Positions 1 through 58,825 of a stretch of DNA of 64,000 nucleotides are shown here, one piece after another. This DNA comes from Morinoia aosen (lineage: Eukaryota > Arthropoda > Malacostraca > Amphipoda > Talitridae), in the NCBI GenBank assembly GCA_030386875.1, contig CM059575.1, positions 40,826,859-40,890,858 of the forward strand, read 5' to 3'. The notes beneath the pieces are model-generated. The model ran no database searches. It saw only the letters and a program-made list of their open reading frames with translations, and had not been told where the DNA came from. Within the stretch, counting starts at the first letter, position 1, and the number at the start of each line of letters is the position of its first letter. The translations under genes and the position numbers were made by a program.

Positions 1-1
1 A

Positions 2-767
2 AACCTTCTGAGAAACCTTAAATTGTGGTATGACCATAATGGCCTCAAACTTAACGCAAGTAAAACGCAATGCATTATTTTTGGATCACAGAATGCGACT
101 AAAAATTTACCACCATTCAAGCTAACATTTGGAGACGATACAATTGAACCAGTAGAGACGGTAAAAAAATCTGGGTGTTTGGTTTGACAAAAATATGACT
201 TTCAATTCACACGTCGAAACAATGTGCAACAAAATAAACGGAACCTTAATGTTCTTTCATCGCATTAAGAACACACTTGACGAAAAATCTAGATTGTTAG
301 TGATTCAGTCTTTAGTTTTATCGCACCTGGACTATTGCAGTGTTGTATGGGGAAATTTACCTCAATATCGTCAGGAAGAGTTGCAAAAATGTCTAAACTT
401 CGCCGCCAAAGTGGTGTGCAAAGGAAATTTCAATAAATACGATCATGTCACCCCTCTTTTAAGAAAACTCGACTGGATCCCAATACCGAACAGATTCATG
501 ATCCAAAAAGCTCGACGAGTGTTCTCCTCTCTGTACCTCCCCCAAAGTAATGCAGAGGTGGTAAAATTTTTTCCATCTAATATCCCAAACAAAAAACCAA
601 ATCGGAGGAATGATGTTTTAGTCAGTTACCGTTCATCTAACGTGGGACAAAAAGCTCTATCAGTTTCTGGAGCTTTTTTGTGGAACAAGCTTCCCCAGCA
701 TATCAAAAACTCTAAAACTGTAAAAGAATTTAGAGTAAATGTGTCACGTCATTTTGCATCTCTATAG
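2..767 (+). pseudogene. LINE-A ORF2 C-terminal fragment (end of RT and C-terminal domain)
   Basis: About 250 codons matching the last part of ORF2 in the other family A copies. Residue blocks include a WYDHNGLKLN-like thumb segment near the start, HVETMCNKINGTLMFFHRIK, and a C-terminal region with LNFAAKVVC and GQKALSVSGAFLWNKLP. The catalytic YADD region lies upstream, outside the window. The frame changes once in an A-run near 165-172, where the copies elsewhere read through, so this copy is broken. The stop at 765-767 matches the normal ORF2 end. The product would be the carboxyl end of an endonuclease-RT polyprotein, and this copy cannot make a functional enzyme. Confidence 0.85.
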
Positions 768-16407: not shown

Positions 16408-19073
16408 ATGTATCAATATAGAACTCGTTCAACTACTTGGAAGGTTGCCCCATCTGAAAAAACAACATCCTCCAGTGCAGCTTCGTATGAAAAGCTCAGT
16501 AAAAAGCGTAATGCACCAGCCATAAAGCTGAAAGGCAGACCTAATAAATCCGCCCCTGTAACTCTATCAGTTCAAGGTCCTCAAACACTCAAACCAAAAA
16601 ATGCTTCTCGGACGTTCGTGAAGTCTGATATAAGCAAGTGTTTCTCAGCCCCTGAAGCATCACTAATGACTGCAAAATCTGAGTCATCTGACACGGGCGA
16701 AAATCTCTCAGGCGCTGCTTGTAATAATTCAGCTCCCAGTAATAATTCATCTTCTCAAGTTCTGAAACCTGCTACGGGCACACCCGAAGCGAGTTCAAGA
16801 AATTACGTACAAGCAGCACTCGACTCGCAACCCCACGCTTTGGACTGTGTCCGAGAAGACTCATCGTCCACAAAGCCGAGAATCTTTAGTAAAGAAGATA
16901 CCGCGTCACTGGCGACATCTGCCACAGCACTGCGAGCTCCTTCGTCTCGCCGAAACGATTGCGTAATGGCGAAGTCGCCCCTGCCCTGCGTCAATGAGAA
17001 AGCTCAAAATCGTTCACCGCCGACGGAAACACCAACGTCATCGTTAGAACGCGATAAAATTTTGGATGTGTGCAACCAGTCAGAAAGTAAAAGGGGTAAT
17101 TTTAATTATAATTTTAATGATAAATTGTGTGTAGACCTTTCAGGTGGCGAAGTTATGTTTGAAAATGCATACGAAGCAGCTAATACTGGCAGTAAAATAC
17201 CTCAGAGCGTAAACTGCGAAGATAACGTAAGATTTTCAGTGGAGAACAATACAAACGGACCTGTTACCGCTTTTGAAGGGTACTTACATCCTCTCCAGAT
17301 GACCAGTTCCCAAACTATTCACGAAATAAATAACACGTTGTCTCTTACAGCTGCATTTCTCAATAAAGCTTTGAGACAAAATCGTCCCCCAAGCCCAGCG
17401 TCGATTTTTTCCACTGTATCAAATATTCAAATGTTTACAGAACAGCTTTTTGCTTTAAATTATCGTATCAGCGCTCATGATTTTACGCCGGTGGTAGCTG
17501 CGAGTAACCATCCTTATGCGAAATCCCCTTTAGACACTTTTCTCGTTGGAGACAATAGTCTCACAAAAATCAACAGAGATGACATTGATAGTGCATGCAG
17601 GATTCAGACCATAACTTCGGAACGTCTAAATGATCTCTATGGTGAGATTCAACGCGCACCTCCATTCAGGAACTATATAATTAGTTTCAAAGGTTTGAGC
17701 CTCTCGTCCCAAAATCTCACGAAGTTAAAAAATCTGATCATGACAAAAAATTTTCTTTCTCGTATTTATGTGGTGAGTGCCTGCAGTGGGCAGCCATTGT
17801 ACATGGCATCGAGCTTGTGCAAAAAATTGGTCTTAAACTGATTCCGGTGCGAGCAAACGTAAAAACCGTTACTGTTAATGAAGCTTACAACAACGTCCGC
17901 ACTTGGCCTGTTACGCGAGAAGACACGCATCATTTTCTTCAACAAATTGCTCTAAGATCACCTTTGAGACTAACTTCACATTTTATCTCCTGTGTCAGAA
18001 ACTCCCATGACCTGAATGAAGAAATTGAATACTCTAATGATTATGCAAAACAGCAAAATGAGTTGAATGATTGTTCTAAGTTGACCGCCTTTCCACGTGA
18101 AACCTCCAGGAGCATAAACCGATGTTTGCCTTCATATAAGAAACCCTCTCCTTCCCTCTCCTCCCGATGTTTGCCCTCATATAACACGCCCTCTCCTGCA
18201 TCTGCCACAAACAATTGCGGAGTGCCTACAAAAAATAGGTTTTCATTGCTATCCAATGCTGATGCAGAGGATGAAAAGCCCCTCTTAGACACTAGTATAA
18301 ATCAACATCCAATCACATACTCGGAAGCAGTGAAATCCACAGGAAGAGAGAAATCGCTGCAAAATTGCAGTCGACAATCGATGGAAAATCCACTACCTAA
18401 CTGTGTTCACAATCATCGCCAGAAAAATGGAATTGACACGAGCATTTCTCAGTTCTATGCAAATCCCCATACAAGAAATCACCACAGCCCGCCCTTTCAG
18501 AGCCAGAAAAACGTAAATTCCCCGCACCTCTCAGAACCTCTTAATGATGTAAAAAGTACGAAAAAAAACGTCTCCAGCCCCATTTGTGAACGCATGAATT
18601 CCACAATGGATGAATTGAAACGATCATGGAACATAAAACTGATTCCCACCAAAGCCGATGGACACTGCCTCCTCCATGCAGTAGCTCATCTACTTACAAA
18701 ACAACCGGCATCAAATTGGAATTACAATTCCCTAAAGGCTGCAATCAAAACAGAGAGTAAAGCAAACAACAGCACATACGCTAATTTTTTTTACAAGAAC
18801 AGTGGAGACATGCAAAACCTCATAGATAATTACATTGACGACAAACATTTTGATCAAGCTGCTGTAGACCTTATACCACTAATCATTTCAAATGTGACAG
18901 GCCAAAAACTTCTCGTCCTGGATGAACAGGATCATTGTGTTTTGAAAATATCATTCAACCCCTTTTCAGAGTTATCAAATAATAACCCTCCACTACTGCT
19001 CCATCGTAAAAGCGATCACTACAGTGCTCTTGTCACACAAGGCAAAAATCAGACCGGGATCACCTCATCTTGA
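16408..19073 (+). pseudogene. LINE-A copy 1 ORF1 with C-terminal OTU-type cysteine protease domain, one frameshift
   Basis: The ATG at 16408 aligns with the ATG of copy 2. The first roughly 250 residues are Ser/Thr/Pro-rich and low complexity. A conserved central region follows, and the last roughly 150 residues form an OTU-like domain: catalytic Asp and Cys in KADGHCLLHAVAHLL (Asp codon 18657-18659, Cys codon 18666-18668) and the His in SDHYSAL near 19016. A one-base loss in an A-run near 17820-17826 breaks the frame relative to copy 2, giving open parts 16408-17841 and 17817-19073. OTU proteins are deubiquitinases or viral polyprotein proteases; the role here is inferred. No zinc knuckle or RRM was seen. 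Confidence 0.85.
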
Positions 19074-19076
19074 CAG
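19071..19076 (+). promoter_or_regulatory. Candidate readthrough stop (UGA C) between ORF1 and ORF2
   Basis: ORF1 ends in TGA followed by CAG. The next stretch is open in the same frame and leads directly into the endonuclease of ORF2, with no other stop for about 1 kb. UGA followed by C is the leakiest stop context known. The same arrangement, TGA then CAA, occurs in copy 2. In copy 1 an ATG at 19236 could serve as an alternative start, whereas copy 2 lacks it. Confidence 0.5.
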
Positions 19077-22041
19077 AGTGCCGCTGCCCAGCCAAATAGT
19101 AGACTTTCTTACATAGCAGAAGCTGGGCCAAACACCCTGGGCAACTTAGACAAAATCGATAAATCCCCTGAACGATCCCATCGAAATAGTAACTTGGCTA
19201 CCTTCAAAAAGAGTGCTAATATAGGTAAAATCAAAATGCTCGAGCATGTAAATGCTCGAAGCCTGAATGGTAAATTGGATGAAATCAGAGTAATGTTGGT
19301 CACTGAAGAAATTAACATTTTGTGTGTCTCAGAAACCTGGTTTGATTCACGAACCCAAAGTTCATTTTTTAACATTCCTGATTACGTGTTGTACCGCTAC
19401 GATGGCGCTAAAACCAGCCGACGTAGTGGATCTTGTGTTTTTGTGAAAGAAATGTACTCAACATCTTCACTATTAGCGAATAAAGTTTGCGAAGGCATTG
19501 AAATGGTTTGGTTAGAAGCGCAAATAAATAAACACAAATCAATCATCATTGGCAGCCTTTACCGGCACCCATCGTCTCCCCTAAATCTAACACTAGATTT
19601 CATTGAGTACTTCAAAAAAATCCTTCGGGCAAAAAAATCATTCTTTGCTTTCGGAGATTTTAATGTTGACCTAACGGACAAAAACAATCAGCTAAGCAAA
19701 CTATTGTATAAACTAAGCCTATCACAAATGGTCAAAGAACCGACTCGCATCACTAAAGTCTCTGCAACTCTCCTCGATCTAGCCATCACAAATAATCCCA
19801 CTGCAATACTTAGTACAGTAATATCACCTTTTATTTCCGATCACCACTCTATAGAATGTGAAATAAATATTGCAAAGGAAAGACAAAAATACCGCTTAAT
19901 GACCTATCGCTCGAAAAGGCACTATTCAGCAGAACTATTTCAAGAAAAACTTCTCGATAGGTCCACCGAATTCCAGAAAATGAAGCAATCTGACGATGAT
20001 GACATTCATGTGTCAATCTTCAACGAGAACTTCACAGCAGCTCTCGACGAATGTGCACCTTCGTTACCAAAAAAACCAAGCCAAAACGGACTGTTTGGAT
20101 TACTGACGAAGTGAAAGAGATGAGCAGAATAAAGAAAGCTAACTTGCGAGAGTACTAAAAAAATAGATCAAACAGTACCTTATACAAGAGATATAAAGAA
20201 CATGAGAAAATTCTTCGAAAGAAAATCACTGAAGCGAAACAAACTCACTTCCACCAGGCACTGATAATGGCTAAAAATAACCCGAAACGAACTTGGGAAA
20301 TCATTAGTGAGGTAGCCCCATATAAAAATCTAGATCGCAAAAGTAATTTTGAAAATCCCTTTGCAACAGCCACAGATTTCAACACATTCTTTTCAAAAGT
20401 AGGGGCTCAAGTTTTCAGTGAGGTGTGTACCAATCCAGATGAAACGACAATTTAAAATTCATGCCCCACTGCACCCTCGAGGACTGATGTCAAGTGGAGA
20501 CCACGCCCTGTCGGTTTACCGGAGTTACAAAATATCTTATACTCACTAAAAAACACAAAGGTAATTGGACATGATGGTATCAGTCTTCAATATATCAAAG
20601 ACAGTTTCTCTGTTACAGCACCATGGATTCGTCTGATAATTAATACATCAATAGTAACCAACATGTTTCCAAACCAATGGAAACACTCCATTATTAGACC
20701 GTTGCATAAAAGTGGTGACCTAAATACAGCATCAAACTACAGGCCCATCAGTCTTTTGCCTGTCATGTCAAAACTATTAGAGAAAGTGGTGACAAATCAA
20801 CTGTCGTTTCACCTGGACGAGTCAAATCTACTCCACCAAAATCAATATGCCTATAGAAGAAATGCTAGCACTCAAGACGCTCTGCTCAATATCTCTGAAA
20901 AAATATACAGTGACATCGATCAAAAGAATGTAACACTCTTGCTGCTACTCGATCTCTCTAAGACTTCGATAGCGTCGAACATGATAGACTTCTACGTAAA
21001 ATACTGAACCTGGAAATAGACACGCAATGGTTTGAAAGTTACTTGTCAAATCGATCTCATGCAGTCCGCATAGAAAACAAATTGTCCCCATTCATTCAAA
21101 ACAATTTTGGTGTTCCCCAAGGATCCATTCTTGGTCCGCTACTGTTTTCTGTTTTCATTAATGATTTCCCTCCAATGCCTTCTAACACACGGATCCCAAT
21201 GTATGCAGATGATTTTCAAATTGCAATAACAAGTTCTGTATCGGAAATACCACAGACGCAAATTATAGCCGAAACTTTACTGACTAGCCTGAAATCATGG
21301 TACGACCGAAATGGTCTTAAATTAAATGTTAATAAAACACAATGCATTATTTTTGGATCCAAAGATACAATTAAAAAAACTTCAGATCTTACTCTTGCAG
21401 TTGGAAATGATAAAATAAGTGCATCAGAAAAAGTTAAAAATCTAGGAATCTGGTTCGATAGAAATATGTCCTTCAAATCTCACGTTGAGACTACTTGCAA
21501 CAAAATCTACGGAACTTTGATGTTTTTTCATCGTATAAAAAGTATGCTAGACGAAAAATCCAGATTATTAGCAATTCAATCCCTTGTGTTATCGCGCATT
21601 GACTACTGCAGCCTAGTATGGGAAGACTTACCAAAATACCTTCAAAGGGACTTACAAAAGTGCATGAATTTTGCAGCGAAGGTGGTATGCAACGGTAATT
21701 TCAAAAGAAGTGATCACGTAACCCCTCTCCTCAATAAACTCGGCTGTATTCCTATCCAAGAAAGGCTCCTCACGCAGAAGGCCCAATACGTATTCTCCTC
21801 GTTATATCTTCCTCAGAGCAATGCTGAGATAGTGTGTTTCCATCCACCCACTGTAACCCATCAAAAACCGAATAGAAACAATAATGTCTTAGTCAACTGT
21901 CGTTCATCTCACTTAGGGCAGAAGGCTCTGTCCATATCAGGCGCCTCACTGTGGAACAAACTTCTCCTGAGTATTAAAGTCCCTCAAAGACCGAGAGAAT
22001 TTAAAGCCAAAATAACTCGTCATCTTGTGTCCCAAGAATAA
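19074..22041 (+). pseudogene. LINE-A copy 1 ORF2: APE endonuclease and reverse transcriptase, disabled
   Basis: Endonuclease motifs in order: VNARSLNGKLDE, SETWFDSR (Glu), GSLYRHPSSP, FGDFNVDLTD, SDHHSIECE. RT motifs: NYRPISLLPVMSKLLEK, FGVPQGSILGPLLFSVFIND and the catalytic YADD near 21205, then the thumb and a C-terminal region ending at 22041. The frame is lost near 20059 and 20962, with stops at 20157 and 20453, whereas copy 2 is open at all these points. The intact protein would nick target DNA and prime cDNA synthesis there. The motif set places it in the CR1-like group of LINEs. Confidence 0.88.
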
Positions 22042-28313: not shown

Positions 28314-31279
28314 TTATTGAGACACAAGATGACGAGTTATTTTGGCTTTAAATTCTCTCGGTCTTTGAGGGACTTTAATATTCAGGGGAAGTTTGTTCCA
28401 CAGTAAGGCGCCTGATAGGACAGAGCCTTCTGCCCTAAGTGAGATGAACGATAGTTGACTAAGACATTATTGTTTCTGTTCGGTTTTTGATTGGTTACAG
28501 TGGGTGGATGGAAACGCACTATCTCCGCATTGCTCTGAGGAAGATATAACGAGGAGAATACGTATTGGGCCTTCTGCAAGAGGAGCCTTTCTTGGATAGG
28601 AATCCAGCCGAGTTTATTGAGGAGAGGGGTTACGTGATCATTTCTTTTGAAATTACCGTTGCATACCACCTTGGCTGCAAAATTCATGCATTTTTGTAAG
28701 TCCCTTTGAAGGTATTGAGGTAAGTCTCCCCATACTAGGCTGCAGTAGTCAATGCGCGATAACACAAGGGATTGAATAGCTAATAATCTGGATTTTTCGT
28801 CTAGCATACTTTTTATACGATGAAAAAACATTAAAGTTCCGTAGATTTTGTTGCAAGTAGTCTCAACGTGAGATTTGAAGGACATATTGCTATCGAACCA
28901 GATACCTAGATTTTTAACTTTTTCTGATGCATTAATTTTATCATTTCCAACTGCAAGAGTAAGATCTGAAGTTTTTTTAATTGCATATATGGATCCAAAA
29001 ATAATGCATTGTGTTTTATTAGCATTTAATTTGAGACCATTTCGGTCGTACCATGATTTCAGGCTAGTCAGTAAAGTTTCGGCTTTAATTTGCGTCTGTG
29101 GTATTTCCGATACTGAACTTGTTATTGCAATTTGAACATCATCTGCATACATTGAGATCCGTGTGTTAGAAGGCATTGGAGGGAAATTATTAATGAAAAT
29201 AGAAAAGAGTAGCGGACCAAGAATGGATCCTTGGGGAACACCAAAATTGTTTTGAATGAATGGGGACAATTTGTTTTCTATGCGGACTGCATGAGATCGA
29301 TTTGACAAGTAGCTTTCAAACCATTGCGTGTCTATTCCCAAGTTCAGTATTTTACGTAGAAGTCTTTCATGTTCGACGCTATCGAACGCCTTAGAGAGAT
29401 CAAGTAGCAGCAAGAGTGTTACATTCTTTTGATCGATGTCACTGTATATTTTTTCAGATATATTGAGCAGAGCGTCTTGGGTGCTAGTATTTCTTCTATA
29501 GGCATATTGATTTTGGTGGAGTAGATTTGACTCGTCCAGGTGAAATGACAGTTGATTTGTCACCACTTTCTCCAATAGTTTGGACATGACAGGCAAAAGA
29601 CTGATGGGCCTGTAGTTTGATGCTGTATTTAGGTCACCACTTTTGTGCAACGGTCTAATAATGGAGTGTTTCCATTGGTTTGGAAACGTGTTGGTTACTA
29701 TTGATGTATTAATTATCAGACGAATCCATGTTGCTGTAACAGGGAAACTGTCTTTGATATATTGAAGACTGATACCATCATGTCCAACCGCCTTTGTGTT
29801 TTTTAGTGAGTATAAGATGTTTTGTAACTCCGGTAAATCGACAGGGCGTGGTCTCCACTTGACATCAGTCCTCGAGGGTGCAGTGGGGCATGAATTTTCA
29901 ATTGTCGTTTCATCTGGATTGGTACACACCTCACTGAAAACTTGAGCCCCTACTTTTGAAAAGAATGTGTTGAAATCCGTGGCTGTTGCCAAGGGATTTT
30001 CAAAATTACTTATGCGATCTAAATTTTTATATGGGGCTACCTCACTAATGATTTCCCAAGTTCGCTTCGGGTTATTTTTAGCCGTTATCAGTGCCTGGTG
30101 GAAGTGAGTTTGTTTCGCTTCAGTGATTTTCTTTCGAAGAATTTTTTCATGTTCTTTATATCTCTTGTATAAGGTACTGTTTGATCTATTGTTTTTGTAC
30201 TCTCGCAAGTTAGCTTTCTTTATTCTGCTCATCTCTTTAACTTCGTCAGTAATCCAAACAGTCCGTTTCGGCTTGGTTTTTTTGGTGACGTGAGGTGCAC
30301 ATTCGTCGAGAGCTGCTGTGAAGTTCTCGTTCAAGATTGACACTTGCATGTCAACATCGTCAGATTGCATCATTTTCTGGAATTCGTTCGACCTATCGAG
30401 TAGTTTTTCTTGAAATAGTTCTGCTGAATAGTGCCTTTTCGAGCGATAGGTCATTAAGCGGTATTTTTGTCTTTCCTTCGCAATATTAATTTCACATTCT
30501 ATAGAGTGGTGATCGGAAATAGAAGGGGATATTACTGTACTAAGTATTGCGGTGGGATTATTTGTGATTGCTAGATCGAGGAGAGTTGCAGAGACTTTAG
30601 TGATGCGAGTCGGTTCTTTGACCATTTGTGATAGGCTTAGTTTATACAATAGTTTGCTTAGCTGATTGTTTTTGTCCGTTAGGTCAACATTGAAATCTCC
30701 GAAAGCAAAGAATGATTTTTTTGCCTGAAGGATTTCTTTGAAGGTCTCCTCAATGAAATCTAGTGTTAGATTTAGGGGAGACGATGGGTGCCGGTAAAGG
30801 CTGCCAATGATTATTGATTTGTGTTTATTTATTTGCACTTCTAACCAAACCATTTCAATGCCTTCGCAAACTTTATTCGCTAGTAGTGAAGATGTTGAGT
30901 ACATTTCTTTCACAAAAATACAAGATCCACTACCTCGGCTGGTTTTAGCGCCATCGTAGCGGTACAACACGTAATCAGGAATGTTCAAAAATGAACTTTG
31001 GGTTCGTGAATCAAACCATGTCTCTGAGACACACAAAATGTCAATTTTTTCAGTGACCAGCATTACTCTGATTTCATCCAATTTACCATTCAGGCTTCGA
31101 GCATTTACATGCTTGATTTTGATTTTACCTATATTAGCACTCTTTTTAAAGGTAGCGAAGTTACTATCTCGATGTGATCGTTCAGGGGATTTATCGATTT
31201 TGTCTAAGTTGCCCAGGGTGTTTGGCCCAGCATCTGCTATGTAAGAAAGTCTACTATTTGGTTGGGCAGCGGCACTTTG
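28314..31279 (-). CDS. LINE-A copy 2 ORF2: APE endonuclease and reverse transcriptase (near-intact)
   Basis: Open from the codon after the ORF1 UGA (31279) to 28382. Order: a conserved linker of about 60 residues (QSAAAQPNSRLSYIADAG at its start), endonuclease (NARSLNGK, SETWFDSR, GSLYRHPSSP, FGDFNVDLTD, SDHHSIECE), a middle region (TVWITDEVKEMSRIKKANLR), RT (NYRPISLLPVMSKLLEK, LDLSKAFDSVEHERLL, FGVPQGSILGPLLFSIFIN, catalytic YADD) and the C-terminal domain. One frameshift near 28437 alters the last roughly 40 residues; the normal end would be the stop at 28314-28316. In this copy no in-frame ATG lies between the ORF1 stop and the endonuclease, so independent initiation is not obvious. CR1-like group. 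Confidence 0.9.
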
Positions 31280-31282
31280 TCA
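31277..31282 (-). promoter_or_regulatory. Candidate readthrough stop (UGA C) in LINE-A copy 2
   Basis: On the minus strand ORF1 ends TCA TCT TGA and continues CAA AGT GCC in the same frame into ORF2. Stop type, following C and frame relation are all the same in copy 1. In the roughly 185-base linker after the stop I counted seven substitutions between copies, four of them synonymous, which is what translated sequence would show, though the number is small. Confidence 0.55.
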
Positions 31283-33826
31283 AGATGAGGTAACCCCGGT
31301 CTGATTTTTGCCTTGTGTGACAAGAGCACTGTAGTGATCGTTTTTACGATGGAGCAGTAGTGGGGGGTTATTATTTGATAACTCTGAAATGGGAACGACT
31401 GATATTTTAAAAACACAATGATCCTGTTCATCCAGGACGAGAAGTTTTTGGCCTGTCACATTTGAAATGATTAGTGGTATAAGGTCTACAGCAGCTTGGT
31501 CAAAATGTTTTTCATCAATGTAATTATCTATGAGGTTTTGCATGTCTCCACTGTTCTTGGCGACAAACTTAGCGTATGTGCTGTTGTTTGCTTTACTCTC
31601 TGTTTTGATTGCAGCCTTTAGGGAATTGTAATTCCATTTTGATGCTGGTTGTTTTGTAAGTAGATGAGCTACTGCGTGGAGGAGGCAGTGTCCATCGGCT
31701 TTGGTGGGAATCAGTTTTATGTTCCATGATCGTTTCAATTCATCCATTGTGGAATTCATGCGTTCATAAATGGGGCTGGAGACGTTTTTTTTCGCACTTT
31801 TTACATCATTAAGAGGTTCTGAGAGGTGCGGGGAATTTACGTTTTTCTGGTTCTGAATTCCCGCTCTGTGGTGATTTCTTGTATGGGGATTTGTAGAGAA
31901 CTGAGAAATGCTCGTGTCAATTATATTTTTCTGGTGATGATTGTGCATACCGTTGGGTAGTGAATTTTCCATCGATTGTCGACTGCAATTTTGCAGCGAT
32001 TTCTCTCTTCCTGTTGATTTCACTGCTTCCGAGTATGTGATTGGCTGTTGATTTATACTCGTGTCTAAGAGGGGCTGTTCATCCTCTTCATCAGCATTGG
32101 ATAGCAATGAAAACCTATTTTTTGTAGGCACTCCGCAATTGTTTGTGGCGGATGATGGAGAGGGCTTGTTATATGAGGGCAAACATCGGGAGGAGAGGGG
32201 AGGAGAGGGTTTGTTATACGAAGGCAAACATCGGTTTATGCTGCTGGAGGTTTCACGTGGATAGGCGGTCAACTTAGAACAATCATTCAACTCATTTTGC
32301 TGTTTTGCATAATCATTAGAGTATTCAATTTCTTCATTCAGATCATGGGAGTTTCTGATACAGGAGATAAAATGTGAAGTTAGTCTCAAAGGTGATTTTA
32401 GAGCAATTTGTTGAAGAAAATGATGCGTGTCTTCTGGCGTAACGGGCCAAGTGCGGACATTGTTGTAAGCTTCATTGACAGGACCGGTTTTTACATTTGC
32501 TCGCAGCGGAATCAGTTTAAGACCAATTTTTCTGCACAGGCTCGATGACATGTACAATTGCTGCCCACTGCAGGAACTCACTACATAAATATGAGAAAAA
32601 AGATTCTTTGTCATGATCAGATTTTTTAACTTTGTGAGATTTTGGGACGAGAGGCTCAAACCTTTGAAACTAATTATATAGTTCCTGAAAGGAGGTGCGC
32701 GTTCAATCTCATCATAGAGATCATTCAGACGTTCCGAAGTTATGGTCTGAATCCTGCATGCGCTATCAATGTCATCTCTGTTGATTTTTGTGAGACTATT
32801 GTCTCCAACGAAAAAAGTGTCTAGAGGGGATTGCGCATAATGATGGTTACTCGCAGCTACCACCGGCGTAAAATCATGAGCGCTGATACAATAATTTAAA
32901 GCAAAAAGCTGTTCTTTAATCATTTGAATATTTGATACAGTGGAAAAAATCGACGCTGGGCTTGGGGGACAATTTTGTCTCAGAGCTTTATTGAGAAATG
33001 CAGCTGTAAGAGACAGCATGTTATTTATTTCGTGAATAGTTTGGGAACTGGTCATTTGGAGAGGATGTAAGTACCCATCAAAAGCGATAGCAGGTCTGTT
33101 TGTGTTGTTCTCCACTGAAAATCTTAAGTTATCCTCGCAGTTTACGCTCTGAGGTACTTTACTGCCAGTGTCAGCTGCCGCGCATGCATTTTCAAACCTA
33201 ACTCCACCGCCTGAAAGGACTACACACAATTGATCATTAAAATTATAATTAAAATTACCCGTTTTACTCTCTGACTGGTTCCTCACAACGAAAATTTTAT
33301 CGCGTTCCAACGTTGACGTTGACGTTGGTGTCGTCGTCGTTGGTGAACAATTTTGAGCTTTCTCAGTGACGCAGGACAGGGGAGATGCCGCCATGACGCA
33401 ATCGTTGGGACGAGACGAAGAAGCTAGCGGTGGTGCTGTGGCAGCTGGCGCCAGTGATGAGGTACAAGCAGCGCTTGGCAGATTTTCGTCAAAGACGGGC
33501 GACTCTGCTGCTCGATTCTTTGTCGGGCACCTCTCCGTCAATTCTCTCTCGGTCGGCACTGGTGATGTTTTGAGAGTTGCGGTGCTTTCGTCGACGTCAT
33601 ACCGTTTCTCTGTCGGAGTTTTTGTAGTCATTGTGAGCGGCTTAGGCTTTTGAACGAGCGATTTTACACGCGAGAATTTTGGTGGTTTTTGCTTTCGATT
33701 TCTGAACGGTTCAGATATATTCCGCTTTTTGGGGTTTGAGTTTTCATGCGGCGCTGTTTTGAGGGATGTTATTTCCCCAGATAAAGCTGCTTTCCGAGTA
33801 GCTGAGCGAGTTTCGTAATGAGACAT
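31280..33826 (-). CDS. LINE-A copy 2 ORF1 with OTU-type cysteine protease domain
   Basis: An open frame of 848 codons from the ATG complement at 33824-33826. Residues 1-250 are Ser/Thr/Pro-rich. A conserved central region holds SQTIHEINNMLSLTAAFLNK and RTWPVTPEDTHHFLQQIAL. A polar, Ser-rich part follows, then the OTU domain at about 700-845. Asp711 and Cys714 lie in ADGHCLLHAVAHLL and His831 in NDHYSAL; the Cys-His spacing of 117 fits OTU proteases. The domain ends about 15 residues before the UGA. OTU domains occur in deubiquitinases and in the polyproteins of some RNA viruses, and have been noted in a few retroelements. Possible roles are processing an ORF1-ORF2 fusion or removing ubiquitin. 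No classical RNA-binding motif was seen. Confidence 0.85.
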   Translation of the reverse strand: MSHYETRSATRKAALSGEITSLKTAPHENSNPKKRNISEPFRNRKQKPPKFSRVKSLVQKPKPLTMTTKTPTEKRYDVDESTATLKTSPVPTERELTERCPTKNRAAESPVFDENLPSAACTSSLAPAATAPPLASSSRPNDCVMAASPLSCVTEKAQNCSPTTTTPTSTSTLERDKIFVVRNQSESKTGNFNYNFNDQLCVVLSGGGVRFENACAAADTGSKVPQSVNCEDNLRFSVENNTNRPAIAFDGYLHPLQMTSSQTIHEINNMLSLTAAFLNKALRQNCPPSPASIFSTVSNIQMIKEQLFALNYCISAHDFTPVVAASNHHYAQSPLDTFFVGDNSLTKINRDDIDSACRIQTITSERLNDLYDEIERAPPFRNYIISFKGLSLSSQNLTKLKNLIMTKNLFSHIYVVSSCSGQQLYMSSSLCRKIGLKLIPLRANVKTGPVNEAYNNVRTWPVTPEDTHHFLQQIALKSPLRLTSHFISCIRNSHDLNEEIEYSNDYAKQQNELNDCSKLTAYPRETSSSINRCLPSYNKPSPPLSSRCLPSYNKPSPSSATNNCGVPTKNRFSLLSNADEEDEQPLLDTSINQQPITYSEAVKSTGREKSLQNCSRQSMENSLPNGMHNHHQKNIIDTSISQFSTNPHTRNHHRAGIQNQKNVNSPHLSEPLNDVKSAKKNVSSPIYERMNSTMDELKRSWNIKLIPTKADGHCLLHAVAHLLTKQPASKWNYNSLKAAIKTESKANNSTYAKFVAKNSGDMQNLIDNYIDEKHFDQAAVDLIPLIISNVTGQKLLVLDEQDHCVFKISVVPISELSNNNPPLLLHRKNDHYSALVTQGKNQTGVTSS

Positions 33827-38225: not shown

Positions 38226-39110
38226 TATTAGGCTGGGTAAAACTCGAGGTGTTAAAGACAGAAAAATTGGCCTGAATTAAAATCTGGTGGAGAACTCTGG
38301 TTTATTGATTTTTAGGAAAACCACACCAAGGGTAAAGGTGGGGTCCTGGTTAATAAAATTAGGTACGTTGAGAACATGAATATTATTTTGTGCGGGGATC
38401 GAAAATTAAAAAAAATACTGAGCCAATATACAAATTTTCAATGCGTATCGAGGATAAAATGATTTTTTTATAACACTTGAAGAACGATGCTTCTATGTGT
38501 AAAGGTGATTACAGCAAACACCGTGCGACCGGCAAGGGACCCTATACTTTGTATGGTCTTCCTAACATCTATAAACCAGATTTCTTTGCCAAATTCCAGT
38601 TTAGGTCAATTTCTGCTGCCTTTAACCCTCCGAGTAACAACCTGGCCAAATATTTTGTTCCATACTTGAAACTCCTGACTACTAATTGTTTTACTGTTGA
38701 CAAGTCTAGGTAATTTTTAGAATGTTTATCAGGTTTTAAAAATGCAGTTGACCTGTTCATGGCTTCGTTTTTTTCTTAAGAATAGTTTTCCATTTTTTAC
38801 TTTTGATAACAAATAGGTAAATTTTTGTCAAAGATTTATGATCACAAGCCAGCATTTCATGTAATCAACAGAAGTTTTTTCTCAAGCTTCCTAACTTCGG
38901 ACACCAGTCGGTTAAATTGAATCAGGAGGTTCAACTCCAAATCAATAATTTTTTCCCAGAACTTGAAGTTCACTCTTTTATTGTCAACCATTTTAGATTC
39001 GGTTCCCTTTTCCACTTAAAGATAAACTGCCCTTTACTGTGCGCTTGTCTCTGGTTTAGTTGTTTACGTTGTGAATTACGGTACGTAGGCTCTATTATTA
39101 TATTATTATT
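38226..39110 (+). pseudogene. Penelope-like element RT fragment (plus), locus 1
   Basis: Starts with a damaged KPDKG-type block (GKGGVLVNKIRYVENMNIIL near 38330-38390), continues with YGLPNIYKPDFFAKFQFR and NNLAKYFVPYLKLLTTNCF at about 38550-38700, then after a deletion near 38775 the C-terminal part with SCLRCELRYVGS, the beginning of a GIY-YIG nuclease, up to about 39090. It joins LINE-A copy 3 at about 39110. Several frame breaks are present. Its 5' end abuts the 5' end of the minus-strand fragment. Confidence 0.8.
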
Positions 39111-39440
39111 CGCCATTCAATCCCTGGTGTTATCGCGCATTGGCTACTGCAGCCTAGTATGGAGAAACTTACCTCAATACCTTCAAAGGGATTTACAAAA
39201 GTGCACCAACTTCACAGCCAAGGTAGTGTGCAACGGTAATTTCAAAAAAAGTGATCACGTAACCCCTCTCCTTTATAAACTCGGCTGGATTCCTATCCAA
39301 GAAAGGCTCCATCCACCCACTGTAACCAACCAAAAGCCGAACAGAAACATTAATGTCTTAACTATCGTTCATCTCACATAGGGCAGAAGGCTCTGTCAAT
39401 ATCAGGCGCCTTACTGTGGAATAAACTTCTCTTGAGTATT
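39111..39440 (+). pseudogene. LINE-A copy 3 ORF2 C-terminal fragment
   Basis: Encodes AIQSLVLSRIGYCSLVWRNL and NFTAKVVCNGNFKKSDHVTP as in the other copies. An internal deletion of about 75 bases then removes the segment between the ERL and HPPTVTNQ blocks, and the frame is lost near 39360-39375. It is non-functional, and its catalytic domains were never copied. Confidence 0.88.
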
Positions 39441-40174
39441 AAAATCCCTCAAAGACCGAGAGAATTTAAAGCCAAAATTACTCGTCATCTTACGTCTCAA
39501 CAATAATTCTTAGTTACAGAACATACTAAATAAGTATTGACGAATCTCATTTGCCTGGTATCTCCATTGCTGAATAATCTCCCTTGCTCATTGTTTTATG
39601 ATTCAGGACATTACACAACAGTTTTAAAGTATGCGTAGGTATTATGATTTGGTCGTCTATACGCTAGGATTTGCTAACATGCTTACTTGTATATGTGTGT
39701 GCGCATATGGGTGTGCATTTGTGCACATAAATCTGTGTGCACTGGACTGACAAATAGCATATAAACTATACATACCGCCTTTTTTCACTTCCAACTTCCT
39801 TATTTCCAACTTCCAACTTCCATAGACATTCTGCACCATATTTCAAAGATAATGTGATTTTTTCCTAATATGATAATGAAGCCCTTATACGGCATTCATG
39901 TTTTCTTTCTTATTAAGTTCAAAAATGCTCTTGTTAAGCTAGTTTAGTGCAAATTATCATACCATTTCCTACGCTCTAGAGCAGTGGTTCCCAACCTTTT
40001 TCAGCTTGTTACCCAATTTAGCATGCCACATTAAGCATGTTACCCCTTTCACAAAATGTTGCCAACATCAATATATATATATATGGCTAAACCAAAACAC
40101 TAGAGATAATTTCTTTTATTTATTGTATTAGTACATTTTGCATCTCTAATGACTCCCCAAAGATGTCAAGAGCA

Positions 40175-41199: not shown

Positions 41200-44100
41200 C
41201 TAGTATTCTGATAGGAAGTGAGACTCAAGATTTCTTTTGAATAATTTGTACGAATTACATTTACGGGTCTCCGCAGGTATAGAGTTCCAAGTTTTGGTTC
41301 CAACGAAGAGGATACTGTGTTGCGACCGGGCCTTCGAATAATAAGGAAGCATGAATTTACTTCTGTTTCGGGTTAAATGGTCGTGATGACCAGTTTGCGC
41401 AGTCAATAACTGTCTTAGGCTATTGTCGCCATCATTTCTTAATGTTTTGTAAATGAAATTACAGAAAGAGATTTTGTAGAGATCCGAAAGTTTAAGTATT
41501 TGTAAATTTTTGAAAGAATCATTTGTGTGAGCATTATATTCTAGGTTCTTTACCGCTCTGACAGCTCTTTTCTGCAGAGTAAAAATTTTGTTAGTTTTAT
41601 TTTTATCAGTTCCGTGCCATGCTTCTATTCCGTATTGCAAGTATGGAGAAATAAGCGTTCGGTAGAGCATTTGTAAAGCTGTTTCAGGCAGAAAATTTTC
41701 AACTTTATTTAGGATTCCGATGGATTTTGATAATTTAGAACTAATATGAGTGATGTGCTCTTTGAAGGTCAGATGTTTATCTATTATGATGCCCAGAAAC
41801 TTACATGAGTTGGTTTCTTCGATTTCACCTTCGCCAATTTTAATGTATGGGAGAGATACATCTTTCTTGTATGAGAATGTAATATAATTTGTTTTATCAA
41901 TATTAAGGCTTATTTTTATTAGCTTTGAGCCACGATGAAACCTTATGAAGTTCATTATTTATACTCTCCACAATCATAGCTAGATTTTGGTTCGGAAGGA
42001 CCGCAGAAAGCGTACTGTCATCGGCAAAAAGTATGAATTTGAAGAATGATGAAGATTTTACAATATCATTGATAAAAATCAGAAACAGGAGAGGCCCAAG
42101 AACAGATCCTTGTGGAACTCCATGGCTAATTGTCTGTGGGTCTGATTTTGCGTCGTCAATGACAACGTATTGCTTCCGATTTGTTAGGTAGGATCTGAAC
42201 CAATCATGGGAAATCCCTCGAATGCCATAACAGTGTAGTTTCGAGAGTAGTATTTTAAGGACGACACAATCGAATGCTTTTCGAAAGTCAAGAAATACAG
42301 AGAAGACAGGCTTTCCTTCATCTATATTTGAATAGAGGAATTGTAAATGATTTAATATAGCCTGTGTTGTTGATTTTTAAGAGTGAAAGCCGTATTGTTT
42401 ATCGTAAAGAAATGATTTCTGTTCAAAATAAAAGTACACTTTTTTATACACAACCTTTTCGAATACTTTGCTAATAATTGGTAGTACGGAGATAGGTCGA
42501 TAATTGTTTACACAGGTTTTTTCACCACTTTTAAAGATAGGGGTTACTCTAGCAACTTTGAGGGAGTTCGGGAAAGTGCCTAGTGAGAGAGACTGGTTAA
42601 TAATATTTGATATCAGCGGGGCTACAATGTCAGCAATAACTTTAAGTACTTTAGTCGGAAACTTTTGTAACCCACTCGATTTATTTTTCATGTTGTTTAT
42701 GCACGTAATTACATCGGAGGAGTTTGTAGGCGTAAAGAAAAAGGAGTTGGGTTCTCGAATATGATCCATAAATTCCAGGTGGTCAGTAGGCTCACTTGGA
42801 ATACCATCAGCTATAGTTTTCCCTACGTTTACGAAGAAGTTGTTAAAGAGATTAGCAATTTCTTTCTTCTCATGGTATTTCACATTATCTTGAATGACAT
42901 ATTCAATTTTCTTTTTATCGGCATTATTCGGTTTACAGCAAGAGTAAAGGAGATGCCAAGTCCTTTTAACGTCAGTTTTGAATTGAGTAAACTTGAGCGT
43001 AAAGTATTTCTTTTTTGCTGTTCTTATCTGGTTTGTTACATAGTTTCTGAATCGGTTATATGTTTCTCTAGATATTCGCCCTTCGCAAAGGAGGGCTAGG
43101 TACGCTTGACGTTTCTTTATATTTATTACGATGTCTCTAGTAATCCAGGGCTTTTGTTTATTTTTCGGGGTAACTGTACGAGTTACAATTGGGCATCACT
43201 GATTGTATGCGGTCATTATAGTTTCAGTCAACTTTACTACTGCTTCATCAATGCTCTTAGCATTATTATTTTGTTGAGAGATGTGCAATGTAGGTATTGA
43301 TTCTTTTAGAACGGTGCGCATTTCTTCAAGATTTGATTCGTTTATTTTACGATATGAGTAAGTTTCAGCCTGTGCCTTGGTGCAAGCAATATAGACATTT
43401 TTCTTAATAAGAAAAACTGGGAAGTGATCTGATAAGTCAGAAGTAATTATTCCAGCAAGAAAATCACTTGGGTCTGTCATAAAGATATTGTCAAGCAGCG
43501 TAGCACACTCTGAGGTTATTCGTGTAGGCTTAGTAATGATCAGAAGGAAGGATTGAGACTGAAAGGTTGTTAGGAAATTAGAGATTGGTTCATAGCCTTC
43601 ATGTTTCAGTAGATCATAATTGCAGTCACCGCATATAATTATGTCATTGTATAAAGGCCTGTTTAACTGAGAAATAATACGATTCAGCTCATTCAGGAAG
43701 GATATAGGGCAGGCTGTAGGAGGCCTATACACCGTTCCAAGCACAATGCGTTTACCTTCTCTAGACAGTTCCACGAAGAGTGATTCTATATGATCCTGAT
43801 TCATTGTTGCACTTGCTATGGTTCTCGAGTCTATGTGGTTAGATATATATGTGCTGATGCCTCCGCCCCGCTGGTTTTTTCTTAGCGAATGGTAACTATG
43901 ATAATTTTCAAATCGAATCATGTCTTTAGCCGAGTCATCTAGCCAGCTTTCGGTGAAGCTAATCACGTCTAGGTTATATTTAAGTTCAGTAATAGTACAT
44001 TGTATCTCTTCCAATTTTGGATAGAGTGACTTACAGTTCCAACACAGGAGGGCGAAATCTCGGTCAGTTATTCGTATAGTTTCGTTGAATTTTGATATAT

Positions 44101-44203
44101 TAGTATACCTACACTCTTGAGAGTCGTTTAGGTTTGGATATATTCTGTTCAAATGATTGGGATCTGGGTCGATTTCCTCGAATATCTCAGGGTGATCAGT
44201 CAT
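41200..44203 (-). pseudogene. LINE-B copy 2 ORF2: APE endonuclease and reverse transcriptase
   Basis: Starts at the ATG complement 44201-44203. Endonuclease: CWNCKSLYPK, FTESWLDD (Glu), GTVYRPPTACP, ICGDCNYDLL, SDHFPVFLI, to about 43196. After a frameshift there and another near 42883 the RT continues: NNYRPISVLPIISKVFEK, FLDFRKAFDCV, HGVPQGSVLGPLLFLIFIND, catalytic FADDSTL near 42010, then the thumb and C-terminal domain (LGIIIDKHLTFKEHI, LQKRAVRAVKNL) to the stop at 41200. One stop near 42377 and a break near 41955 are also present. All key motifs survive, so decay is moderate. Confidence 0.9.
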
Positions 44204-44756
44204 TTAAAATTAGTAAACAGTAAGAAGTAGGTACTATAGAGCTTAAAAACGAAATACAGAGTCAAGCTTTAAGGGATATTTCTGTCTAAAAAACTAGCTT
44301 ATGAAGTACGAGAGAATAGAGTGTAAAAAAATCTAGTGCGATTACGTGAGTACACATAAACTCAGTCCATGAGCGAATAATATTGGAGTTCAATATCACA
44401 ACATTGGTGTAAACAGATTGCCGCATGAAGGCGTTTTTACAAGTTCACAAACAACAGGTAATTAGTTTTTAAAGATTATAACGACAATGATATAATCAGC
44501 TAATATGGTTTACGCGTAATAATAACTTTAGTGGTAAAAAAGCAAAATTCACAGTAACATTGGGAGGTGAAAAATTGCTGATTGCGTTGTTTCAAAAGTT
44601 CACACACAGCTGTCATAAATGTTTACAAACACATCTGTTATACATTTGTATAAATTCAGGTTAGACTAACATCAAGTTGAGGTTAAACTGACATGATACC
44701 TAATTGAGGTTAAACTAACACGAAACTGACATATCTAATTTAGAGGATCACCTAGT

Positions 44757-45578
44757 CTAGTCACCCATGACCTGCTTCGATGTCATATTAAGTTGTTGCT
44801 TTAGGTATTGCTCGAGGTCATCTGGCGTGTTGATCTCGCGGTGTCTTGAATCTTGGTTTCCGGGGTTAAATATGAAGATGTTTCCATCCTGTGTTCTTGG
44901 GATTCCAATTTTATCCGGGAATTTCCTTTTGGCCATCCTCAGAATGTACATGACGTTAGCTCGTGAAGGTATGAGGTATTCATTTATGAAGAAGAACTGT
45001 GGTTTCTTTTCTCGGCAGGCGTTGAGAATTTCACGTTTTTTGTTATAATGTTTTAGTTCAAATGTAATGTTTCTTTGATCTACGTTCCCAGTTACTGGTT
45101 TTTCCCCATTCTTGTAGCTGACGTGATGTCAGTGTCGGAGAGGTCAATGTTGATCTTGTCCTTCAGGAGCTGGCAGACTGTATCCTTACAGATTTCGTCT
45201 GCGTGAGATTGCGGTATTTCCCTTTTAGAAATGACGAGAGTACATTTTTTGTCTTCAATGTCTCGGCGCTGATCATTTTTTTCTAACTGGTCGAGGCGGG
45301 AGGTTAAGCTATCTATTTTCTTATTCTGTTCTTCGAGAGTTTTTTTGTATTCCGCTTCTTTTGTTTCAAATAGCGTTTTAAGGTAACTTATTTCATTTTG
45401 CATTTGAACAATATCACTATTAAATTTTGTCATCACTGAATCGAAGTATTTTATAAGGACAGAAACCACTTCTTTACCGTCTTTCGTTAGGCTAGACACA
45501 TCAGGGTATTGACCAAACTTCGGTTGAAACTCGATGCTGTTGTTGCTGCTGTTGGTACTGCGTCGTTTGTTAGCCATC
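44757..45578 (-). pseudogene. LINE-B copy 2 ORF1 (coiled-coil RNA-binding protein)
   Basis: ATG complement at 45576-45578. A basic, Ser/Asn-rich head is followed by GQYPDVSSLTKDGKEVVSVL, a coiled coil of about 60 residues (IVQMQNEISYLKTLFETKEA through SLTSRLDQLEKNDQ), then an RRM-like stretch (CTLVISKREIPQ, DITSATRMG). After a frameshift near 45092 the C-terminal domain follows (FFINEYLIPSRANVMYILRM) to the stop 44757-44759. The L1-ORF1p-like plan suggests a trimeric RNA chaperone. The same protein is split in copy 1. Confidence 0.82.
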
Positions 45579-45848
45579 TTGAAGATTGAGGGAGTTCGGT
45601 CGTTGCGTAAACGAGGGTTGAATACTCTCACACTTGTGAGGGAATATTATACTCTTAGTTTGATTATTTTTATATATGGGGTATTTAAATCACATTTGAA
45701 TACTCATGGCGAGAGTGGGTACCCATTTAGGTTAGAGGTACATTCTTTCTAACAAGAGGCACTTTGTTTTGGAGCGAGCGCCACACCCGTCCTCACCACA
45801 CGGAGTCACTGAGGACACTGTCAGTCTGTCACTGAGTCACTGAGGACA

Positions 45849-52764: not shown

Positions 52765-54313
52765 ATGCCTCAGTTTGGTAAACTGATGCTCCGCTTCTTG
52801 AACCCAAGGGAACCTCCGGACAAAGCCAAAGTTTTCCAAACTATTCAGAAGACTCTGAAACTTCCTCTGACTGGCCTAAGGGAGGTTGGCAACGGATTCA
52901 ATGCCTTCACGGAATTCGAAGCAGATGTGGAGAAGCTGCTGGACGATCGAGCAACCGCTACCCTGAGAGACATTGGACTGGAAGCGAGGATTCCACCGAA
53001 GATTAGAGCCCAACGCTCTGTCATTTGTCGCCAAATAGATAACTGGGTCGGTGGACATACGGCTGATGAAATCAAAGAGGAAATCAACAGGAAGAATGCC
53101 CAACTAACAGTGAAAGAAGTCATAAAATTCCGGAACCTAACCCATGTATTCAAAATTGAATTCAGCACCATCACCATGGCTAATCACGCGCTCCAGAACG
53201 GATTTCTCTGCTACAACGTGAAAATATCATCATCTCAAATTCAAAAAGAAAAATTCATCGATCTACTGATGTGCTTCAAGTGCTATCAAATCGAAAAACA
53301 TGCGACGAAAGATTGCCCCACACCAAACACCGTGGTGTGTTCGGAGTGCTCGGGAGACCATGACTACCGAGAGTGCACATCGGAAAACAAAAAATGTCTC
53401 AATTGCGGCGGATCTCACAGGACCATGGCAATGAGTTGCCCTATTAGAAAAAGTCCAATGAACGAAAAAATGAAGCAAATTGAAGAGAAGGAAAAAGAAA
53501 AACAGCAAGAAACATATGCTAAAGTAATTCAGAAAACCATTCAACAAGAGGAAAGACAGGAACACAGGACTAGGCTCACAGCAGAACTGATGGCGGACAG
53601 CGGAATGACTGCACTGGTGATGATTTTGGATGCCCATATGGCAAATATAATAACTCCAGGAACCTACAACGATCATCTGAACCGGACTCTCAAAAGGAAC
53701 AACTTCAGAACACTTCAGTTTGACGATAACCCTAAATCGAGTCAGCTGTTTGAAGGAGACCTGCTGACGAGAGTGGTGAAGGTTATGAAGAAACTTCAGA
53801 CTCAATCGGACTCGGAAGCCAGTTCTACGGAGGCGGAGGAGGGAGAAGAGATGGAAACGGAACAGCCACAGAAGCAGGGAGCAGTATCAAAAATTTCAAC
53901 TGAGCGGATTCAGCAGTTACAACCACATGCCCAAATTGCCAAGCAACAACAGCAACTGCAACAACAACAAGCCTCAGCAAGATCGTACTCGGAACCGGCG
54001 CCACAAAGATCTTCAGTGGATCACGTCCTAATTAGACCAGCATGATGTCTTCATGCTTGATGGCTTTCGAAGAGATGTAGAAGCTGGAGAATTTAAGAAA
54101 TTGGTAGGCGAAGGTAAACTGAAATACAAACTTAAAGATGAATGTACTCAACCTCTGGAAATTATCGAGCTGCTAATCGACAACTGCAAATTAATGGAAA
54201 AGAAAACCAGGATTGTTTGGGTCGGGGAACAAGAATTCCGGAAAATACGAACAGGGCACCAGAAAACGCCAGAAAGAGTAGACCCCAAAAAAGTTCGCAC
54301 AGAGGGAGAATGA
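52765..54313 (+). pseudogene. Jockey ORF1 (gag-like, zinc knuckles), one frameshift
   Basis: From the ATG at 52765, 426 codons are open to 54045: a conserved N-terminal domain, three knuckles at about residues 169-217 (CFKCYQIEKHATKDC, CSECSGDHDYREC, CLNCGGSHRTMAMSC), a Lys/Glu-rich helical stretch, and a Gln-rich end. A second open frame, 54053-54313 (MLDGFRRDVEAGEFKKLVGE), continues with no gap, so it is probably the proper C-terminus displaced by a one-base indel near 54045. It ends at TGA 54311-54313, overlapping the ORF2 start. The protein would bind element RNA and form the particle. Confidence 0.82.
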
Positions 54314-58005: not shown

Positions 58006-58825
58006 ATGGCTGCTAGAGATGTCCGGTTACCCGCCTTCAGTGGTGACATCAAGGGATGGCTCCTTCACTGCGATGTTTTTCTCGCATAAATCCCGAACCT
58101 GGACGACGCTTCGAAGTTCGGGGCGCTCCTAGGAGGATTACCCACGCACATTGTATCCGGAGTACAAGAGATACTATTGAACCCCCCGGCAAACGGTAAA
58201 TACGACGCATTAAAGGCGGCGTTGACGCAACGTTTCGTGCGTCACGACGAAGAAACAAACTACAACGCCATCGTTAAAATAACGCTGGGAGACAATACGC
58301 CTTCCGAGTTGCTCCTGGAAATGACGCGTCTCAACAACTGTAGACAAGCTCCGCTACCCCCGTCAGTCATCCGCTCGATGCACCTTTCAAAATTGCCAGT
58401 GGAAGCACAGCCACTGATTGAAGCTTTAGGAAGAGGAAAAACGGACAAGGAGTACAGGGAGATTGCCGATCAAGTCACAGCAAGGCAATCCGCGTGTCGG
58501 TCCTCAACTGCCGAGCCCCCTCACCGTTAACGCTGTCAAGCCATCACCGTCTCCGACAGTGTCAAGAGCCGAATTCGACGCAGCTATGAAGGAGATAGCA
58601 GAACTCAAAGAAATGTTAGGAAGGGCGTTACGCCCGCAAGAAAATGTCCACCAAGGAGACAATTGGCGGAATCAAGCCCCGGCGCCCAGAAACGTCCAAA
58701 ACGCTAACAAAGGAAGCAGGCTCGAACAAGTTTACTGCTACTACCACCGAACCTTCGGCGATCGTGCAAGAAAGTGCACGCAACCGTGCAGCCTTGCGGG
58801 AAACGACGGCCGCGGAGGATGGTAG
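58006..58825 (+). pseudogene. Gypsy-2 gag, disrupted
   Basis: ATG 58006. The N-terminal frame reads MAARDVRLPAFSGDIKGW, is stopped by TAA at 58087-58089, then continues in the same frame with KYDALKAALTQRFVRHDEET and LPVEAQPLIEALGRGKTDKE to about 58490. The LPxF...W start and ILNPP...YDALKxAL pattern are typical of gag in a widespread arthropod gypsy group. A frameshift near 58495 moves to the frame ending at 58825, which holds a helical stretch (FDAAMKEIAELKEMLGRAL) and a [14 protein letters not shown] region like the zinc-binding end of this gag type. It overlaps pol by about 20 bases. Confidence 0.8.
58798..58804 (+). promoter_or_regulatory. Candidate -1 frameshift site GGGAAAC at the gag-pol overlap
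   Basis: The heptamer reads G GGA AAC in the gag frame, which is the X XXY YYZ phase needed for simultaneous slippage. A -1 slip enters exactly the pol frame at 58804. It lies about 20 bases before the gag stop (58823-58825). GGGAAAC is a known working slippery sequence in some retroviruses. A downstream pseudoknot or stem was not worked out. Confidence 0.6.

Follow-up and report, generated by a model that had tools for sequence, protein, structure and literature searches.

How long interspersed elements (LINEs) make little ORF2 protein from an RNA that carries two open reading frames (ORFs) is a long-standing question, and it is raised again by a 64,000-nucleotide stretch of the genome of the amphipod Morinoia aosen (contig CM059575.1, positions 40,826,859 to 40,890,858; hereafter the window, i.e., the whole stretch that was analysed). 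The window contains two members of a LINE family, here called family A (copy 1 on the forward strand, copy 2 on the reverse), and in both of them ORF1 shares its frame with the ORF2 for endonuclease and reverse transcriptase (RT), a single TGA followed by C standing between the two. The original prediction, made from the letters of the window, saw in this a possible programmed readthrough of a retrovirus-like kind. Comparison of the junction among genomic copies and in two further families suggests that the TGA is quite probably a programmed leaky stop, which is the best explanation of the comparative evidence and stands ahead of reinitiation at a non-AUG codon.

The junction in the window and across the genome

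The two copies are 94.6% identical across 5.5 kb, copy 2 running from 33826 to 28382 and copy 1 from 16408 to 22041. ORF1 of copy 2 is uninterrupted for 848 codons, from the ATG at 33826 to the TGA at 31282-31280, where the junction reads TCT-TGA-CAA; past the TGA the frame is open for 965 codons, to 28385, and encodes an APE-like endonuclease and then an RT in one frame, which places the element among the APE-type non-LTR (long terminal repeat) retrotransposons, or LINEs. The junction of copy 1 reads TCT-TGA-CAG (TGA at 19071-19073) and the same frame enters the endonuclease; the predicted TGA-C with a shared open frame beyond it was confirmed at both places. The linker leading into the endonuclease, predicted at about 60 residues, measured 58 codons in copy 2 and 59 in copy 1, and a tally of seven linker substitutions, four of them synonymous, proved exact for the codons at 31279-31118. 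As had also been claimed, copy 2 lacks an in-frame ATG ahead of the endonuclease; counted from the TGA, the earliest is codon 73 (31063-31061), beyond the NARS motif at codon 59. Damage to copy 1, with copy 2 as the reference, consists of 1-base deletions in both ORF1 and ORF2, and near 28418 a 1-base difference shifts the 3' end of ORF2 in copy 2 with respect to copy 1.

The source assembly (1.99 Gb, 29 contigs), in which 115 matches to the Chitin_bind_4 cuticle family were counted, as would be expected of an arthropod, was searched with a family A junction pattern that left the stop and the next base as four free bases, and the search was rerun with TGAC fixed. Genome-wide there were 644 anchored junctions, 635 of them with TGAC; one of the nine others was read (TGAA, at locus L030). 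An alignment of 59 rows, which represent 51 distinct places (L001 repeats copy 2, and L002-L008 repeat L009-L015), has TGA in all 59 and the following C in 58. Of 50 distinct copies read, 48 have no break in the linker before the NARS motif, L038 and L043 being frameshifted. An in-frame ATG is absent from 47 of these 48 open linkers, and that of copy 1 is a 3-base insertion (19237-19239), just ahead of the endonuclease, which the other 58 of the 59 rows do not have. The linkers of L033, L054 and L058 have in common a same-length, in-frame block replacement, SPERSHRDSN to SPEDSRDSSN.

The same arrangement was found in related families. Family B, whose 3' end lies at the start of the window, was read upstream in L028, where the frame runs ...HYSALLKMRDENRVAPSPIL-stop-LNNSDQ...NIKILHINARS, with TGA-CTA at the stop. 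A motif pattern for the OTU-like domain that ends ORF1 matched 2006 places genome-wide, and 20 of these were read, picked for codon variants among the matches listed. Ten could be followed by eye from the OTU frame to the junction, and all ten have the TGA, followed by C in nine and by T in L077; an earlier stop is present in L066 and L067, and L063 is interrupted within the linker. Frameshifts or breaks ahead of the junction affect the remaining ten. The places read include a third family, D. Anchored searches gave 731 places for B and 103 for D, and among the matches listed TGAC stood at 98 of 100 in each, the exceptions being GGAC and TAAC in B and TCAC and TGAA in D, i.e., a sense codon at the junction in 1 of 100 in either family. 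TGA, the next C and the shared frame are kept in three diverged families, and the survey of genomic copies that the original prediction had proposed supports it: a sense codon, another frame relation or a conserved ATG for ORF2, the outcomes named as contrary to it, were none of them found as a family trait.

The family B elements also carried information on age. When the related protein P0001 served as the query, ORF2 was open in every one of the best-scoring 46 of 45,226 candidates, with a length of 987 codons at 44 places, 982 at one and 1000 at one. Seven of the 46 were read, all of them family B (L059 and L080-L085), and the remainder score nearly alike. In L059, ORF1 is open for 797 codons ahead of the TGA, and the position of the TGA and the length of the frame fit a 987-codon frame that begins at the TGA. 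L080-L085 read TGACTA throughout, and any two of these six copies differ at 0-4 of 601 bases. Because the B copies are near-identical and their best-scoring ORF2 frames are open, TGA-bearing elements must have amplified recently, and ORF2 has to be made by some route or supplied in trans.

Linker constraint, stop context and rival explanations

The linker is 58 codons long in A, 58 in D and 55 in B, so that changes in length have preserved the frame, and its residue identity is 23/58 between A and D and 15/53 between A and B. Synonymous divergence (dS) in the linker is 1.05 for A-D and 1.38 for A-B (0.93 and 2.5 in the endonuclease part), and the ratio of nonsynonymous to synonymous divergence (dN/dS) is 0.41 for A-D and 0.57 for A-B, while comparison of A with two A' copies, L068 and L069, gave 0.34-0.38; a rough Fisher test of the A-D constraint gave p 0.015. 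Within family A, variants shared by at least 3 of the 50 copies were compared with singletons: the ratio of nonsynonymous (N) to synonymous (S) variants in the endonuclease is 0.16 for shared variants vs 0.67 for singletons (p 1.5e-5), with a trend in the linker (0.24 vs 0.65) and values of 0.52 vs 0.68 in the ORF1 tail (p 0.34). The endonuclease is under purifying selection, and between families so is the linker. The H, N, A and S of the NARS motif are invariant across seven sequences, the Asn being presumably the catalytic residue known from the LINE-1 endonuclease.

The other two frames of the linker hold 2-4 and 6-14 stops in nine copies, and shuffling leaves the frame open in 2.4% of trials for A, 2.3% for D and 1.3% for B, which makes the open linker more than chance would give. 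An in-frame ATG is missing from 43-54% of shuffled linkers, so its absence alone is not unusual. In five copies (two A, two D and one B) the earliest in-frame AUG, counted from the stop, is codon 73 in A and D and codon 64 in B, beyond the NARS motif (codon 59 or 56, respectively), and the same copies have 1-4 out-of-frame AUGs within the linker. No start codon overlapping or near the stop was found in the ORF2 frame of these five, copy 1 with its 3-base insertion being the exception, and a search for the 2A motif D(V/I)ExNPGP returned no NPGP in the six frames of both window copies, L028 and L059.

The stop context is UGA-CUA in family B and UGA-CAR in families A and D. According to excerpts of PMC3542737, the type II readthrough signal of viruses is UGA followed by CUA or CGG, accompanied in most cases by a 3' structure, and UGA-C contexts permit 0.3-5% readthrough; an excerpt of PMC4132726 gives 1.5% for UGA-CUA alone. 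Of the type II signal, B has the CUA context, and A and D do not. The comparative features generally looked for in readthrough, i.e., a conserved stop, +4 base and frame with coding constraint downstream, are found here, the constraint on the linker within family A being not significant. The proposal of a programmed, retrovirus-like readthrough is supported by the TGA, C and frame kept in three families, and in B by UGA-CUA in recent copies. Most ribosomes would end at the TGA and release the ORF1-OTU protein (OTU alone in the A7 copies described below), and a few would decode UGA-C as an amino acid and go on in frame along the linker of ~55-58 residues to yield a fusion with the endonuclease-RT. 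The low ratio of enzyme to ORF1/OTU protein would be set by readthrough, like that of gammaretroviral gag-pol. That readthrough occurs we infer from sequence comparison, as we do its efficiency, the ratio of its products and any part that OTU may play in cutting the fusion.

Several points weigh against a leaky stop. The leakiness of A and D is less certain because UGA-CAR is neither CARYYA nor CUA/CGG. The search for a downstream RNA structure, which the original prediction had called for, did not demonstrate a conserved one on folding A, B and D: no z-score is below -1 in A or B, and in D alone the 90-nt windows reach -2.0 to -2.4; D has a possible 10-bp helix from 9 nt after the TGA, A has weak competing helices and B has none. 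RNAalifold predicted 11 pairs; its covariation term was 0.06, and a single pair had changed on both sides, so that such a structure is suggestive at most. Linker variants within A number 6N:7S when shared vs 21N:9S as singletons, which is not significant (p 0.18), and the close B pair L074-L059 has a linker dN/dS of 1.37, L074 being decayed. An in-frame linker ATG is present in three of nine copies (copy 1, L069 and L074), the latter two being decayed, with a stop in the linker as well. Anchored patterns are biased to young, unmutated copies with intact flanks, and thus their counts mainly reflect what the source elements carried; they are also blind to a stop-less family with other flanks, and the 46 open B frames are a best-scoring selection from the 45,226 candidates. 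The OTU profile is carried by 3 of 115 related proteins, two of them with endonuclease-RT. A predicted start Met lies 18, 28 and 54 residues ahead of the endonuclease motif in P0001, P0010 and P0034, respectively, and mammalian LINE-1 can begin ORF2 without a fixed AUG.

These Met residues speak for a fresh start of ORF2, whether by reinitiation at a non-AUG codon of the linker after the TGA or by internal entry, an alternative that we consider unlikely. AUG-independent initiation would need no in-frame AUG, and reinitiation is a known LINE strategy, proposed for LINE-1 and associated in SART1 with an overlapping stop-start site (excerpt of PMC5972666). The predicted start Mets of relatives are gene-caller choices and weak evidence, as is their placement inside the endonuclease in P0009 (the closest full-length relative), P0011, P0012 and P0013, which is as expected if an upstream start is missing. 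A fresh start does not need the ORF1 frame, yet that frame is kept in three families across linkers of 55-58 codons; it would face the out-of-frame AUGs of the five copies checked and a linker constrained between A and D, and it predicts neither UGA-C nor UGA-CUA. Removal or bypass of the TGA in RNA, through splicing, editing or a separate ORF2 transcript, is very improbable, since a stop-less template RNA should leave stop-less copies, and new copies, which are made from RNA, carry the TGA in nearly all matches listed.

It is scarcely credible that the elements are dead, with a meaningless nonsense mutation of one master inherited by many copies. Both window copies are otherwise damaged, copy number alone is no proof that each copy works, and an unseen stop-less source may have helped in trans, but the same TGA-C recurs in three diverged families, shared vs singleton variants reveal purifying selection on the endonuclease, and stop-less variants were seen as isolated sense codons among the matches listed in B and D. 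This reading was set aside on account of the recent amplification of B and its open ORF2 frames. Least probable of all is a sense meaning of UGA in this genome, whether reassigned genome-wide or read as selenocysteine, for which the in-frame TGA itself speaks and nothing more: copy 2 has 1 TGA vs 15 TGG in 1814 codons, so UGA is not a general sense codon, the counts in B are 1 vs 6 in the 972 codons read, and no Rfam family matched within the window at gathering thresholds.

ORF1, its OTU-like domain and a run of adenines

The original prediction had placed an OTU domain next to the junction. This holds for the family, as each of the ten members tested matches PF02338 with E no higher than 0.1 (best E 1.6e-8), and less well for the window protein, copy 2 alone giving E 6.4e-4, below the curated cut-off. 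DGHC and HYS are invariant across ten sequences, and the profile together with the conserved catalytic Cys and His identifies an OTU-like cysteine protease of predicted activity. A PDB search with the OTU profile gave three weak matches, one of them an OTU protein (E 0.91); ORF1 gave nothing there, and the endonuclease part one unrelated weak match. No relatives of ORF1 were found, and viral and prokaryotic contig collections, from which records close to the window's genome are possibly absent, yielded no relatives. Among the related proteins the OTU profile is clear in P0002, P0038 and P0103. In P0002 and P0038 the OTU domain, endonuclease and RT form a single ORF, so that the stop in A, B and D sits where those two relatives have none, and P0002 has an NPGP motif ahead of OTU.

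Farther upstream, the 5' parts of the two window copies, including the ORF1 N-terminus (16408-16898 in copy 1, 33465-33826 in copy 2), give no DNA alignment, similarity beginning inside ORF1, perhaps through exchange of a 5' module between subfamilies. Central ORF1 (32300-32815, reverse strand) has a conserved block, GDN(S/I)L ... NYI(I/L)SF(K/D)GL, that has no Pfam match and that by eye we take to resemble the SGNH-type esterase of CR1 ORF1.

The length of an A run ahead of OTU determines whether ORF1 and OTU share a frame. Of 36 family A copies readable with the pattern, 11 have A8, the two window copies among them, and the other 25 have A7; 9 of the 11 A8 copies continue through OTU to the TGA, L012 and L013 stopping earlier. 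Genome-wide, 100 among the matches listed of 503 comprised, by eye, 44 A7, 53 A8, 2 A6 and 1 A9, and both A7 and A8 forms occur, again by eye, within several family A subfamilies. Assembly noise was considered as their source and is unlikely, since 31 of 32 copies agree on A7 for a run within the endonuclease, and the run of family B was counted by eye as A7 at 89 of 100 among the matches listed of 471.

In every one of the 25 A7 copies ORF1 terminates at GC-ATG-A, 12 codons downstream of the run, and in those without a further indel the ATG is in the OTU frame, forming an AUGA stop-start site with OTU in the -1 frame; in L010, L011, L017 and L026, 675-677 codons of ORF1 are uninterrupted as far as the run. 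A8 looks ancestral because the OTU frame of D is open for 220 codons upstream (both copies read) and B L059 is fused. The OTU-frame junction of A7 copies with the endonuclease is also TGA, which fits OTU-endonuclease-RT as a readthrough unit. The ORF1-OTU-endonuclease-RT polyprotein that had been suggested would apply to family A in its A8 form and, judging from one copy of B and two of D, to those families as well; in about half of the A copies A7 parts ORF1 from OTU, and the product would be OTU-endonuclease-RT. We would entertain, as no more than an unlikely reading, a convergence on the gag/pro/pol layout with two recoding points, the A7/A8 run and the leaky UGA-C, and with OTU cutting or deubiquitinating the readthrough polyprotein; at the first of these points slippage on the run may be able to switch between a fused and a -1-frame OTU.

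Known systems and other elements of the window

The junction resembles type II viral readthrough (alphavirus, tobravirus and coltivirus; UGA-CGG or UGA-CUA) in its UGA followed by C and, in family B, in UGA-CUA itself, and as in alphaviruses the frame downstream of the stop encodes a replication enzyme; it differs in that no conserved extended stem-loop, which in the type II signal begins about 8 nt after the stop, was demonstrated here, in the UGA-CAR of A and D, and in that the element is a LINE and not a virus. With gammaretroviral gag-pol it has in common the shared frame, one stop codon that separates the RT protein from the ORF ahead of it, and the expected low proportion of enzyme, but there the signal is UAG-G with a pseudoknot, and here it is UGA-C, with a protease-like domain upstream of the stop and no recognised LTR or capsid gene. 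SART1 and LINE-1, with termination-reinitiation, and L1Tc and sea urchin elements, with 2A-like sequences, likewise have ORF1 and an endonuclease-RT ORF on one RNA, and the A7 copies of family A with AUGA between ORF1 and OTU are like the termination-reinitiation elements; in contrast, the OTU/endonuclease junction here is a stop in a shared frame, lacking NPGP and, in those intact linkers that were read, any in-frame start. P0002 and P0038 have a homologous OTU directly ahead of endonuclease and RT, but no stop between, and in P0002 the 2A-like NPGP is present. OTU domains are known from the DNA transposons Ginger1 and Helentron (excerpts of PMC2836005 and PMC4067079), the latter also with a CR1-like endonuclease; in these the OTU-like cysteine protease is placed elsewhere, and the excerpts mention no recoding.

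Excerpts of two reviews (PMC5972666, PMC5009743) name reinitiation, 2A and frameshifting as LINE solutions, and stop readthrough is not among the mechanisms they name; no report of it in LINEs was apparent among the titles and abstract openings listed from the open-licence literature. A LINE with virus-like readthrough would be new as a combination of known parts, and, if true, would extend these solutions by a retrovirus-like one, from an element that is abundant and has been active recently. The natural variants UGA-CUA and UGA-CAR are testable in reporters.

Table 1. Features of family A and related elements in the window
Feature	Positions	Strand	Remarks
Copy 2 ORF1, ends in OTU-like domain	31283..33826	-	Open ATG to TGA, 848 codons
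Copy 2 OTU-like cysteine protease domain (DGHCLLHAV ... HRKNDHYSAL)	31283..31720	-	PF02338 profile match
Copy 2 A8 run	31785..31792	-	A8, ORF1 in frame with OTU; A7 (other copies), out of frame
Copy 2 TGA between OTU and endonuclease; next base C (31279)	31280..31282	-	
Copy 2 linker, 58 codons, open, without in-frame ATG	31106..31279	-	
Copy 2 ORF2 frame: linker, APE-type endonuclease, RT	28382..31279	-	RVT_1 E 3e-38, Exo_endo_phos E 6.5e-7
Copy 1 ORF1, interrupted by a single 1-base deletion	16408..19070	+	N-terminal part unlike copy 2
Copy 1 A8 run	18561..18568	+	
Copy 1 TGA, then C	19071..19073	+	
Copy 1 linker, 59 codons, including 3-base insertion creating ATG	19074..19250	+	
Copy 1 endonuclease-RT region, broken by 1-base deletions	19251..22041	+	
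3' end of family B element	1..707	+	Upstream part read in L028: TGA-CTA at same place
3' fragment of related element	39105..39729	+	89-91% identical to copy 2

Two other LINEs lie in the window. One (41200-45631, reverse strand) has an endonuclease-RT ~27% identical to that of family A and an ORF1 that appears coiled-coil-like by eye; the other (52765-57090, forward strand) has a 426-codon ORF1 with a CCHC-like region, by eye, that ends at an ATGATG site, followed by endonuclease and RT. Both provide a contrast to family A, with several stops in the ORF1 frame between the ORF1-like part and the endonuclease. A Gypsy-like retrotransposon Pol, open for 977 codons (58774-61707, forward strand), contains RT, RNase H and integrase, together with a weak protease match.

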